From an uncultured Clostridia bacterium (lineage in GTDB: Bacteria > Bacillota > Clostridia > Oscillospirales > Acutalibacteraceae), in assembly GCA_927362715.1 (NCBI GenBank), contig CAKMIX010000013.1:1-64000 (forward strand): a DNA stretch of 64,000 nucleotides, read 5' to 3'. Positions 1,199 to 20,388 of the stretch are shown here, one piece after another; position 1 is the stretch's first letter, and each line of letters starts with the position of its first letter. The translations under genes and the position numbers were made by a program. A model generated the notes under the pieces. The model searched no databases. It was not told where the DNA came from and saw only the letters and a list, made by a program, of their open reading frames with translations.

Positions 1199-1600
1199 GT
1201 GAACGCATTGCGGTTGGAAATTGATTTGACCAGCGACGTGCCGATCTATCGGCAGATCCGCGACCGGATCGTGCGCGGTGCGGCGTCGGGCGCGCTTGCA
1301 CCCGGTGAACGTCTGCCCACGGTGCGCCAGCTCGCCGCGGATCTCGGCGTAAACCCGATGACCGTCAACAAAGCGTATGCGCTGTTGAAGGCGGAGGGGA
1401 TCATCGTGATGGATCGCAGGCGCGGCGCGCAGATATGTGAAAGCTTTGCGCAAAGCGGCACGCCGGATGATGACTTTGACGGCAAAGCGTCTTTGCTTCT
1501 TTCGGAAGCACGTACAAAAGGCGTTTCCAAGCAGGCTTTGCTGGCACGCATATCGGAAATTGTCAACACGCTTTATCAAGATGGGGAGGGATCCAAATGA
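1199..1600 (+). CDS. GntR family regulator, YtrA subfamily
   Basis: DNA-binding repressor of 133 residues. The N-terminal winged helix-turn-helix of the GntR family is clear: PIYRQIRDRIVRG, then GERLPTVRQLAADLGVNP (recognition helix about residues 40-58) and MTVNKAYALLKAEGI. The C-terminal part is short and helical, as in YtrA-type members, with no UTRA or FCD ligand domain. The GTG at 1199 and an in-frame TTG at 1208 are both possible starts; an AAGGCGGTG sequence lies just before the TTG. It overlaps the next gene by 4 bases, so the two are translationally coupled. YtrA-type regulators usually control adjacent membrane proteins or transporters. Confidence 0.85.
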   Translation: MNALRLEIDLTSDVPIYRQIRDRIVRGAASGALAPGERLPTVRQLAADLGVNPMTVNKAYALLKAEGIIVMDRRRGAQICESFAQSGTPDDDFDGKASLLLSEARTKGVSKQALLARISEIVNTLYQDGEGSK

Positions 1601-2973
1601 TCTGGTTGTTGCTTGCAATGCTTTGGGTGGTGTTTCTCACTGTGCTCGGCGCTTCCGCTTGTGCGGTGCGGCGCGGCGCGTTCGTGCTCGGGGTGGCGTT
1701 CTCTGAAAATAATGCCGAAAGTCCCGAGGTAAAGCGTATTTTGCGCGCCTATTACGCGGGGCTTTGTGCGGCCCTGACTGTATCGGCGGCAGCGGGCTTT
1801 TTGCTGTTTTTGCCGGCTGTGCAAGCATGGGCAGAAATGTGCATGTTGGCGATTTTGGTGCTTTTTCTGCTGCTGACCTGGCTTGTGCAAAATACCGCGC
1901 GACGTCGGCTTTTGACCTTGCGCGCACAAAAGGGCTGGCTGCCGCCTGCGCGTAAAACCCTATCTGCCGATCTTGCGGTAAGCCGTGACAAGGCGACGGG
2001 CGCGCTGTCGCCCGTATTCGTTTGGATATGTCTGGTGTTGAGCTTTGTCCCCTTGATCATCCTGCTTGCTGTTCCGGCGCTTCGTTCGGATTTTCCGCTG
2101 CCCTTTGCTTTCTTCGGTCCGGTTTGCCAGCTCTTCACCGTGCCTCTTTATTATCAGATGCGCAGCCTGCCCGTCCGCACGGCGGGGGAGGACACTGCCG
2201 CCGCCACGGCGTTTGCGCAGAAAAGCATCCGCATTCATACGGGCAGCGCCGTCGCTATGGCGGTAAGCATGCTCCTGTTTTGGCTGCTGTTCGCCTTATC
2301 CGCCGGCGTTCTGCAAAATATGTATCTGTCGATCGTCGCGATCGCGGTTCTGGTGCTTATTAATCTTGCCGCGGCGTTTTGGCAGCAAAAAAAGCTGCGG
2401 GAGCTGGAAAAAGCCTATATGGACGTGCAAGCGCCCGCAGATGCCGATGCGGAGAGCGAATGGAAATGGGGCTGCTATTATAACCCATATGACCCGCGCA
2501 TTTTTGTTCCGAAGCGTGTAGAGAGCCTCGGCTGGACGGTGAATATCGGCCGCCCTGCAGGCAAGGCGATCCTGTTCGGCACACTTGCCGTTTTAGTCTG
2601 CATCGTGGCGCTTGTCGGCGTGATGAGCTTTTCCGGTTTTTCCGTGGCGGTGCAGAACGAACAGCTTCAAATGGAGGCGCCGCTTTATGACCTGACGCTC
2701 ACACGTGAGCAGGTCGAGTCCGTAGAACTCGTAGATGCGCTCCCCGCAAACGGCACACGTACCAACGGTTACGGCGGTGTTTCCAAAAGCTACGGCCATT
2801 TCTACTTTGACGGCTACGGCGCATGCGATCTGTATGTATACAATGATACGGGCAAATATGTTTGCCTGCGCCTTTCGGGCGATGATCCCGCGTATGTGTT
2901 TTTGAATGCTGAGACCGTCGATGCGACCGAGACGTTGTATGCGGAGATCGCACAGTGGCATGCCGCACAATGA
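1597..2973 (+). CDS. DUF5808 domain membrane protein
   Basis: Integral membrane protein of 458 residues with about seven hydrophobic segments. Near residues 290-315 it carries the aromatic motif WGCYYNPYDPRIFVPKR followed by GWTVNIGRPAGK, the hallmark of DUF5808, a domain found in clostridial and bacillal membrane proteins encoded next to small GntR regulators. The C-terminal 120 residues follow the last membrane segment and form a polar domain resembling the PH-like tails of this group. Function is unknown. It is coupled to the GntR gene by an ATGA overlap and followed by a strong terminator, so the two form one operon. Confidence 0.75.
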   Translation: MIWLLLAMLWVVFLTVLGASACAVRRGAFVLGVAFSENNAESPEVKRILRAYYAGLCAALTVSAAAGFLLFLPAVQAWAEMCMLAILVLFLLLTWLVQNTARRRLLTLRAQKGWLPPARKTLSADLAVSRDKATGALSPVFVWICLVLSFVPLIILLAVPALRSDFPLPFAFFGPVCQLFTVPLYYQMRSLPVRTAGEDTAAATAFAQKSIRIHTGSAVAMAVSMLLFWLLFALSAGVLQNMYLSIVAIAVLVLINLAAAFWQQKKLRELEKAYMDVQAPADADAESEWKWGCYYNPYDPRIFVPKRVESLGWTVNIGRPAGKAILFGTLAVLVCIVALVGVMSFSGFSVAVQNEQLQMEAPLYDLTLTREQVESVELVDALPANGTRTNGYGGVSKSYGHFYFDGYGACDLYVYNDTGKYVCLRLSGDDPAYVFLNAETVDATETLYAEIAQWHAAQ

Positions 2974-12579: not shown

Positions 12580-12975
12580 ACATTGCCGCAGGATGGGGAA
12601 ATCTCCGTCCCGCGCGGGGCAACAGGCCATTGCCCCCGCCGCACGGCGTTTGTATAGAGAGGCAAGGGAAGCCGAGCCCAATATGGTTTCAAACGGCAGC
12701 TTTCCGCCTGAACTGCGTTAAAAACCTCGCCATACGGCAGTATGGCATCGGTTTTGTGCCTTGTTCAAACGAAAATCTGCGCGTTTGAAACTGCTCGGCA
12801 CCGAAAACGACGGGAATGCGGATGGATTTTTTCTTTTGAGACGGCAGGTGCGCTGACGCGCACCAACGGTGAAAAAGGGAAAAGCCGCCGCAGGATCAAG
12901 TTTTCGGCATATTGCGTTCGGCTTTCCTTGCCTCAAAAAAAGTGGAGCATCGGCAGTAAAACTGCCGGTGCTTCG
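12580..12975. ncRNA. Structured non-coding element, possible large ncRNA or dispersed repeat
   Basis: This ~400-base gap has no credible coding sequence but is dense in base-pairing potential. A long-range stem joins 12659-12677 to 12916-12934 (19 pairs, two G-U). Inside it are GCCATAC/GTATGGC (12729-12735, 12740-12746) nested in AAAACC/GGTTTT, TTCAAACG/CGTTTGAA (12764-12771, 12782-12789) nested in GTGCC/GGCAC, and GGTGCGC-TGAC-GCGCACC (12847-12864). Alternative local pairing exists (AAAGCCG 12881-12887 with CGGCTTT 12919-12925). Before it are hairpins at 12591-12610 and 12616-12636; after it an 11-bp hairpin at 12947-12971. GCCGCAGGAT occurs twice (12585, 12887). The strand is not settled. 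It matches no RNA family I can name. Confidence 0.6.
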
Positions 12976-13684: not shown

Positions 13685-13799
13685 GTCGGTGTTGATTGCG
13701 ATGAGGGTCCACCCGTTCCCATCCCGAACACGGTAGTTAAGCTCATTTGCGCCGAAAATACTTGACTGGAAGCGGCCCGGGAAAATAGGTAATGCCGAC
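13685..13799 (+). rRNA. rrf: 5S ribosomal RNA, stand-alone
   Basis: Recognised by conserved 5S blocks: GATGAGGGTCCACCCGTTCC, CATCCCGAACACGG, TTAAGCTC and GGGAAAATAGGTAATGCCGAC. The ends GTCGG (13685) and GCCGAC (13799) pair to form helix I; length about 115 bases. No 16S or 23S gene is nearby, and the gene has its own promoter and terminator, so it is an isolated 5S copy. End positions are accurate to a few bases. Confidence 0.95.
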
Positions 13800-13803
13800 A
13801 TCA

Positions 13804-18751: not shown

Positions 18752-20388
18752 GCTTTACGTATCCGCTCGCCGAGCGTTCCGCGCTCGAATCGGTTTCTTT
18801 TTCCGTGCGGCAAGGGGAATTCGTCGTGCTGTGCGGGGGAACCGGCTGCGGCAAAACGACGCTGTTACGGCTCATAAAGCGGGAGCTTGCACCGCACGGC
18901 ACGCGGACAGGCAACGTATTTTTGCACGATGCGCCGATGGATACTCTGGATGCGCGTGCAAGCGCTGCGGAGATCGGCTTTGTCATGCAAAATCCCGAGA
19001 ACCAGATCGTTACGGATAAGGTTTGGCATGAGCTGGCGTTCGGGGCGGAGAGCTTAGGGCTCCCAACGCAGGTGATCCGCCGCCGTGTAGCGGAGACGGC
19101 AAGCTGGCTGGGGATCGAAGGTTGGTTTCGGCAGGATACGGATACGCTTTCCGGCGGGCAAAAACAGCTTTTGAATCTTGCATCGGTGCTGGTGATGCAG
19201 CCGAAAATTCTGCTTTTAGATGAACCGACCGCCCAGCTTGACCCGATCGCGGCAACGGAATTTCTAAATACACTTGCGCGTTTAAATCGGGAAATGGGCA
19301 TGACGATTTTGCTCGTCGAGCATCGCTTGGAAGAGGCGTTTGCGCTTGCCGACCGCGTGCTGCTGCTTGAAAAAGGGCGCCTCATTATGGATGCTGCCCC
19401 GCACGCCGTCGCCGAAGCGCTTTGCAAGACGTCGCCGCCGCACCCCATGTGCGAAGCCTTACCGAGCGCGGCACGCATCTACCGCCTGCTCGGCGCAAAA
19501 AAAGAGCGCTGTCCCATCAGCGTGCGCGAGGGGCGGGAACTTTTACAAGATTACAGCTTTTCAGCGCCTTTGCCGAAAGCCCCGGACGCCGCCTTGAAAA
19601 GCGGGACAGCGCTTGCCGAGCTTCGGGAAGTGTGGTTTCGATATGCGCGTGATCTGCCGGATGTGCTGCGCGGGCTTACGCTTCAGTTGTATGCGGGTGA
19701 GATCTGCTGTGTGCTCGGCGGCAACGGCGTGGGAAAAACGACGCTTCTGAATTTGCTTGCGGGCACGGATAAGCCCTATCGCGGTAAAGTCCGGCTTGCC
19801 AAAAAGGAAAGTGGGTACGCAAAGACCGCCCTGTTGCCGCAGGATCCGCTGCTGCTGTTTACCGAGGATACCGTTCGCGCCGACCTGCTCTCACTTTTGC
19901 AGATCGTCGGCGTGCCAAAAAACGAGCGGGAAGCCCGTGTGGCTGCAGCCGCGCAGGAGCTGCATATAGAAACGCTGCTGGATCGCCATCCGTTTGACTT
20001 GAGCGGCGGCGAACAGCAGAAATGCGCGCTTTCGAAGGTGTTGCTTACAAACCCCGATCTGTTGCTCTTAGACGAGCCGACAAAAGGTATGGACGCCGCT
20101 TGCAAGCAGGGACTTAAGGTGCTTTTGCGCACGCTTCGCGAAAAGGGGCTTTGCATCCTTATTGTCACGCACGACGCAGAATTTGCTGCCGAAACGGCGG
20201 ATCGCTGCGCGCTGCTGTTTGACGGCGAGATCCTGTCTGCTGCACCGCCTCATGATTTCTTTTCGGAAAATTACTTTTACACCACTGCTGCGAACCGCAT
20301 CGCCCGCGGCTTTTGCGAGCATGCAGTCACCTGCGAAGCGGTGGCGGCCGCCGCAAAACCGCGCGGAAAGGCGGATGCGCCATGCTGA
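18724..20388 (+). CDS. ECF transporter ATPase, fused double ABC protein
   Basis: Both ATPase subunits of the ECF importer in one 554-residue chain. First domain (~1-240): Walker A GGTGCGKTTL, Q-loop VMQNPENQIV (typical of EcfA), signature LSGGQKQ, Walker B LLLDEPTAQLDP, H-loop VEHRLEE. Second domain (~300-535): GGNGVGKTTL, LLPQDP, LSGGEQQK, LLLDEPTKGMD, VTHD. All catalytic residues are intact in both halves. The ATG at 18724 follows GAGAGG. The S component starts inside its stop codon region (ATGCTGA overlap). Confidence 0.9.
   Translation: MEILRIENLSFTYPLAERSALESVSFSVRQGEFVVLCGGTGCGKTTLLRLIKRELAPHGTRTGNVFLHDAPMDTLDARASAAEIGFVMQNPENQIVTDKVWHELAFGAESLGLPTQVIRRRVAETASWLGIEGWFRQDTDTLSGGQKQLLNLASVLVMQPKILLLDEPTAQLDPIAATEFLNTLARLNREMGMTILLVEHRLEEAFALADRVLLLEKGRLIMDAAPHAVAEALCKTSPPHPMCEALPSAARIYRLLGAKKERCPISVREGRELLQDYSFSAPLPKAPDAALKSGTALAELREVWFRYARDLPDVLRGLTLQLYAGEICCVLGGNGVGKTTLLNLLAGTDKPYRGKVRLAKKESGYAKTALLPQDPLLLFTEDTVRADLLSLLQIVGVPKNEREARVAAAAQELHIETLLDRHPFDLSGGEQQKCALSKVLLTNPDLLLLDEPTKGMDAACKQGLKVLLRTLREKGLCILIVTHDAEFAAETADRCALLFDGEILSAAPPHDFFSENYFYTTAANRIARGFCEHAVTCEAVAAAAKPRGKADAPC

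Follow-up and report, generated by a model that had tools for sequence, protein, structure and literature searches.

The window, a 64,000-nucleotide stretch of contig CAKMIX010000013.1 from an uncultured Clostridia bacterium (assembly GCA_927362715.1), carries a gene for a trypsin/PDZ protease (htrA-like) and one for a flavin-reductase-like protein, and the element described here lies between them. The initial annotation of this interval, made from the sequence alone, had proposed a 19-pair stem joining 12659-12677 to 12916-12934. This stem is present as claimed, with 17 Watson-Crick and two G-U pairs. The same annotation held that chance pairing of this extent is unlikely, and our folding analysis agrees. 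Segment 12650-12945 (296 nt) has a folding energy of -141.7 kcal/mol, which none of 200 dinucleotide shuffles equalled, with a z score of -9.8 on this strand and -10.2 on the opposite one; when 43 other stretches of 296 nt, taken at even intervals along the window, were folded, the best reached -130.2 and none matched the element segment. The extent originally assigned to the structure had to be reduced: the long-stem structure is real, but the element spans 12656-12937, and the hairpins reported before and after it belong to the flanks. Its parts are as follows.

12656-12937, model strand + (the reverse also matches): whole element copy; covariance model R1, which has this copy among its 32 sequences, gives 302.9 bits on + and 93.2 bits on -.
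12656-12685, +: left terminal inverted repeat, the 5' side of the closing stem, including 12659-12677 (model alignment).
12686-12791, +: arm A, the branch ending in the ATACGGCAGTAT hairpin (model alignment; covariation).
12792-12800, +: 3-bp mini hairpin separating the arms (model alignment).
12801-12907, +: arm B, the branch ending in the GCTGACGC hairpin (model alignment; covariation).
12908-12937, +: right terminal inverted repeat, the 3' side of the closing stem, including 12916-12934 (model alignment).

A repeated 10-mer, GCCGCAGGAT, had also been noted at 12585 and 12887. It is present at both positions, but also at 19836 and 57729. Since it occurs four times in the window, with its first copy outside the element and the inner one altered in the orthologue of genome G019, we take the repeat to be a coincidence. 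The statement that the element matches no familiar riboswitch, tmRNA, 6S or signal recognition RNA was borne out by Rfam, where gathering thresholds gave no match to the element in the window copy or at 17 further loci, and a lax limit gave only two chance-level matches (E 4.2). The sole Rfam family to reach its gathering score in the window is 5S rRNA, whose gene lies at 13685-13800, after the flavin-reductase gene. For the window copy, we saw no sign of a tie to the function of the htrA or the reductase gene.

The element is not confined to this locus. By blastn it occurs at four places in its own genome, the window copy included, and it has matches in 19 of 59 genomes (its own and 58 relatives); a copy is also found in a record of Ca. 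F. excrementigallinarum, which belongs to the window's genus, Candidatus Fimenecus, and is listed by NCBI under Clostridia incertae sedis. The aligned copies share one common block of about 278 bp, whereas their flanks are mostly unrelated except in a few orthologous pairs. In its commonest form the block starts with TAAGCTGAGG and ends with CCTCAGCTTA; the ends are inverted repeats of about 26 bp, and a closing stem surrounds two branched arms. A pattern of the terminal 29 bases was found at 68 places in five genomes, compared with none for a control pattern. Copies at different sites of one genome are up to 96.8% identical.

We next consider sites with and without the element. Joined flanks were run against 13 genomes, which yielded six filled/empty comparisons, two of them readable. 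Locus L043 of G019 is filled and its counterpart in G000 empty, with flanks 94% identical, and locus L037 of G000 is filled and its counterpart in G012 empty, with flanks 80% identical; in both cases a single TA stands opposite TA-element-TA. Divergence was too great to read L043/L138 and L036/L140, a short remnant of the 3' end was left in L046/L136, and L046/L141 had other sequence at the junction. Thus, the element moves, inserting at TA. The two empty sites fit a TA duplication, and fit equally well an insertion beside TA without duplication. Under strict scoring, in which model-derived ends may be off by one base, 68 of 139 copies have TA at both ends, 28 at one end and 43 at neither. The window copy has no TA at either end and is probably an old insertion. 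Orthologous copies can lose the middle while keeping the ends, as at the htrA locus of G012 and in L093 compared with L044; the former was considered as an empty site and rejected as an orthologous copy with an internal deletion.

The copies do not encode a protein. A stop-free frame of at least 60 codons was common to no more than 45 of 131 copies in any frame, and the longest stop-free run per copy was only slightly longer than in mononucleotide shuffles (mean 72.6 compared with 61.1). Consequently, a coding role was rejected, as the 131 copies share no reading frame. In being short and non-coding with terminal inverted repeats, and in being multicopy with unrelated flanks and two readable empty orthologous sites, the element has the features expected of a miniature inverted-repeat transposable element (MITE). 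The window copy had no blastn match in the phage or plasmid collections; in viral contigs, a first search pattern gave no match and a second gave one, whose locus had no R1 match up to E 1.

Several single loci deserve mention. In L224, copies at 1519-1802 (-) and 1795-2077 (+) lie end to end in opposite orientation with an overlap of a few bases, as would result from insertion of one at the end of the other. In L146, L148 and L149 of genome G002 the flanks are alike on both sides, and the element seemingly lies within a larger repeat. At five loci (L077, L078, L079, L091 and L092), contigs of G031 and G010 terminate within the element, and this suggests that assembly breaks down at copies that are nearly identical.

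R1, built from 32 copies, was used to follow the element beyond close relatives. It matches 33 of the 39 genomes of the genus (E up to 0.001). In wider scans (E up to 1e-6), where four to six candidates were scored per genome and the counts are lower bounds, R1 matched at least 79 of 295 genomes of the order (at least 48 of 148 genera), at least 69 of 391 genomes of the class, at least 61 of these outside its own order, and at least 5 of 398 genomes of a phylum-wide sample. These last five are the element's own genome, two of its order, one with weak matches and one outside the class, which has full-length matches (4e-29 and 4e-22). Some R1 matches are weak (1e-7 to 1e-13), but the rarity of matches in the phylum sample, which includes class members without one, argues against indiscriminate matching. 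Forty-one order-wide copies of 281-287 nt, chosen from the best full-length matches with matches of other lengths (about 185 to 331 nt) left out, have a median identity of 47%. The twenty copies taken from the samples of class and phylum have motifs in common with one another in each of the two arms, and most have TA at both ends by eye. In a tree of 131 copies, those of the genus are interspersed among copies from other orders, so several old subfamilies coexist or were exchanged.

We also observed that the copies occupy particular positions relative to genes. Of 140 copies, 48 have a ribosome-binding motif with a start codon and an open frame beginning no more than 30 nt from one end, compared with 257 of 2120 control TA sites taken from ORF-free gaps in the same loci. 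Of these 48 gene starts, 27 begin within 5 nt of the element, and they adjoin both of its sides (26 and 22). In 26 of 139 copies the two flanks are complementary right up to the point of insertion, compared with 257 of 2760 shuffled pairings (9.3%); in about 14 of these, by eye, the flanks make a clear intrinsic terminator whose loop holds the element. The sets of 140 and 139 copies include some orthologous pairs and internally deleted copies. A cruder gene table (52 loci kept of 60) places 3 copies between convergent and 16 between divergent genes. Target choice, purifying selection or a combination of the two may explain these niches at ribosome-binding sites and terminators. At single loci, a Gut-1 RNA (RF01706; 1826-1899) follows the element in L219 at a distance of 16 nt, a sub-threshold Gut-1 match lies further from it in L249 (2104-2173), and in L083 a shortened copy (2718-2801) sits between genes resembling argB and argD by eye, in a gene row on one strand.

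The fold was then examined for compensating changes. RNAalifold, run on the 32 full-length copies, recovered the closing stem and the two branched arms; for 48 of the 84 pairs, one copy or more carries changes at both partners. Further tests were restricted to 101 pairs predicted from both strands. In these copies, 93.3% of the paired cells retained pairing, compared with 80.5% in shuffles and 37-48% in slid structures, and double-change cells numbered 402 against 118 in shuffles. Mapped on the tree, 65 double changes preserved pairing, compared with 0-3 for slid partners. Internal branches of this tree carry 50 doubles and 47 breaks, whereas terminal branches carry 15 doubles and 96 breaks (Fisher p 3e-9), which suggests that pairing is kept while a lineage still jumps and lost after insertion. 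This contrast is absent in the 131-copy tree (p 0.16), where the terminal branches are long. Because alignments made with the model lean towards the model's structure, we realigned with MAFFT 131 unique copies out of 133, nine of them turned by motif, and counted 646 double events against 19-51 for slid pairs. The initial annotation had staked its proposal on homologues elsewhere and on covariation in the stems; relatives occur across Clostridia and the covariation is very strong.

Strong covariation, together with a two-armed fold that persists at about 47% identity, could also indicate a large, structured RNA that functions from one strand and is incidentally multicopy and mobile. Selection on an RNA from one strand would be expected to tolerate G-U but not A-C. 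In the 32 copies, when only the pairs that both strands predict are counted, G-T and A-C mismatches occur about equally (84 and 91), as they do in the 131 copies (458 and 408; first steps 208 and 191, p 0.42). The order-wide set has a mild G-T excess (160 compared with 116), and in each of the three sets arm B also favours G-T, as such an RNA would predict; arm A, in contrast, tilts towards A-C in both sets from the genus and shows no lean in that from the order (the counts by set and arm used 95 best-strand rows of 150). The pairing changes therefore appear to show little strand preference. Balanced mismatches would be compatible with a function at the RNA level if transcription can cross the insert in either orientation, but this balance, the movement of the element, its lying in both orientations at gene starts and the lack of an Rfam match in the window copy and at 17 further loci speak against a one-stranded RNA gene, and we consider this explanation unlikely. 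The initial annotation had offered a large ornate RNA and a dispersed palindromic repeat as its two possibilities. The second is upheld by the four places in its own genome, the unrelated flanks and the relatives across Clostridia, whereas a one-stranded RNA gene is not supported.

A second alternative is that the fold is unselected, and that template switching between the halves of a quasi-palindrome maintains complementarity. Double changes on neighbouring pairs are indeed more frequent than expected (11 compared with 3.2, with a maximum of 10 in 500 permutations), so part of them may be conversion between halves, and subfamilies differ from one another over entire stretches of the terminal stem. 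However, most of the 65 double events are non-adjacent, breaks concentrate on the terminal branches of the 32-copy tree, and in the copies examined the unlike arms, inner loops and near-fixed length persist at 47% identity. Template switching as the sole keeper of the fold is, in our judgment, quite improbable.

The next question concerns the enzyme that moves the element. A MITE derived from the IS630 / Tc1-mariner group would be expected to have an IS630-type transposase in its host, and PF13358 was found in none of 7 and then none of all 39 genus genomes; DDE_Tnp_1 (PF01609), another candidate partner, was found in none of 16 genomes. As draft metagenome assemblies lose repeated genes, these absences are weak evidence. 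By eye, no transposase-like ORF suggesting an autonomous long copy was seen around nine partial or interrupted copies. Y1_Tnp matches occur in 10 of 16 genomes, but Y1/RAYT genes were rejected as partners since they do not follow the element: 5 of the 12 genomes that bear the element, including the window's own, lack them, and 3 of 4 genomes without a model match have them (G024, G028 and G003). RAYT-like proteins with weak Y1_Tnp matches are encoded in several genus genomes (L243, L245 and L246), in stretches without a match to the element model. Insertion beside TA without duplication by a single-strand enzyme (Y1/HUH, RAYT or IS200-like) is, in our view, very improbable: the hairpin-rich ends, the location of some copies in hairpin loops and the two empty sites would suit it, but this distribution of Y1_Tnp genes would not, nor would the lack of any element in ten stretches around them, the matching inverted repeats with TA at both ends or the absence of a favoured strand.

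Taken together, the element is non-coding, dispersed, mobile DNA of about 278 bp, whose fold is kept by compensating changes across Clostridia. We favour the reading, with a probability of roughly 0.7, that it is a MITE-like element moved in trans, with its fold under selection. Our model is that a transposase leaving a 2-bp TA duplication, in the manner of IS630 / Tc1-mariner enzymes, would mobilize this non-autonomous transposon; selection would act on pairing while the lineage jumps, and inserted copies would then decay. The fold could serve in either or both of two ways. Its shape may be what the moving enzyme handles, and folding may take the insert out of transcripts whichever way round it lies, leaving a neighbouring ribosome-binding site or terminator hairpin functional.

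MITE-like repeats are usually viewed as the recent and local remains of a single insertion sequence. The retention of a branched fold and, in the copies examined, of length at less than 50% identity across a class suggests long selection on the shape of DNA or RNA and not on a gene. Going further, we tentatively raise the possibility, which we hold to be doubtful, of an ancient and purely structural DNA parasite of about 280 bp, passed on and dispersed throughout the class Clostridia, with no gene and no resident partner, in which the fold itself is selected, alike on both strands, as the substrate of an enzyme and as a means of looping the insert out of transcripts. If true, landing against a ribosome-binding site or within a terminator loop would do little harm. 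These results raise the questions of which enzyme moves the element and whether folding lets genomes tolerate copies beside ribosome-binding sites and in terminators. They also reveal a gap in annotation, as Rfam holds no model for the element and several draft-genome contigs end within a copy.

In the open-access literature, which leaves most subscription journals outside its coverage, we found no description of such a family in Clostridia. Repeats of comparable kind are described in other bacteria, and we compare them here by description only. ERIC (or IRU) sequences of enterobacteria, 127 bp long with 7-bp terminal inverted repeats in the account consulted, resemble the element in being intergenic and non-coding, with terminal inverted repeats, TA ends, target duplication and transcripts that fold (PMC2229807); the element differs in its length of about 278 bp, its inverted repeats of about 26 bp, its two branched arms and its occurrence in Clostridia. 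The Correia (NEMIS) repeats of Neisseria, one species of which is 107 bp long and cleaved by RNase III, are likewise described as having inverted repeats of about 24 bp, TA ends, target duplication and stem-loop transcripts (PMC2229807), but the element is larger and branched. RUP of Streptococcus pneumoniae shares insertion at TA and terminal inverted repeats, and its movement is attributed to an IS630 transposase acting in trans (PMC2229807); RUP has a resident IS630 partner, whereas none was found for the element in the 39 genus genomes. SPRITE and BOX of S. pneumoniae are also structured intergenic repeats, SPRITE being described as terminator-like (PMC10969869), whereas some copies of the element sit inside existing terminators, with their flanks as the terminator halves. 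By analogy with these descriptions, the element would work like the ERIC, Correia and RUP-type repeats; it stands apart from them by its size, its fold of two arms and the retention of this fold throughout a class. The kind is already known from ERIC, Correia and RUP; a fold kept across a class is what makes this member unusual.
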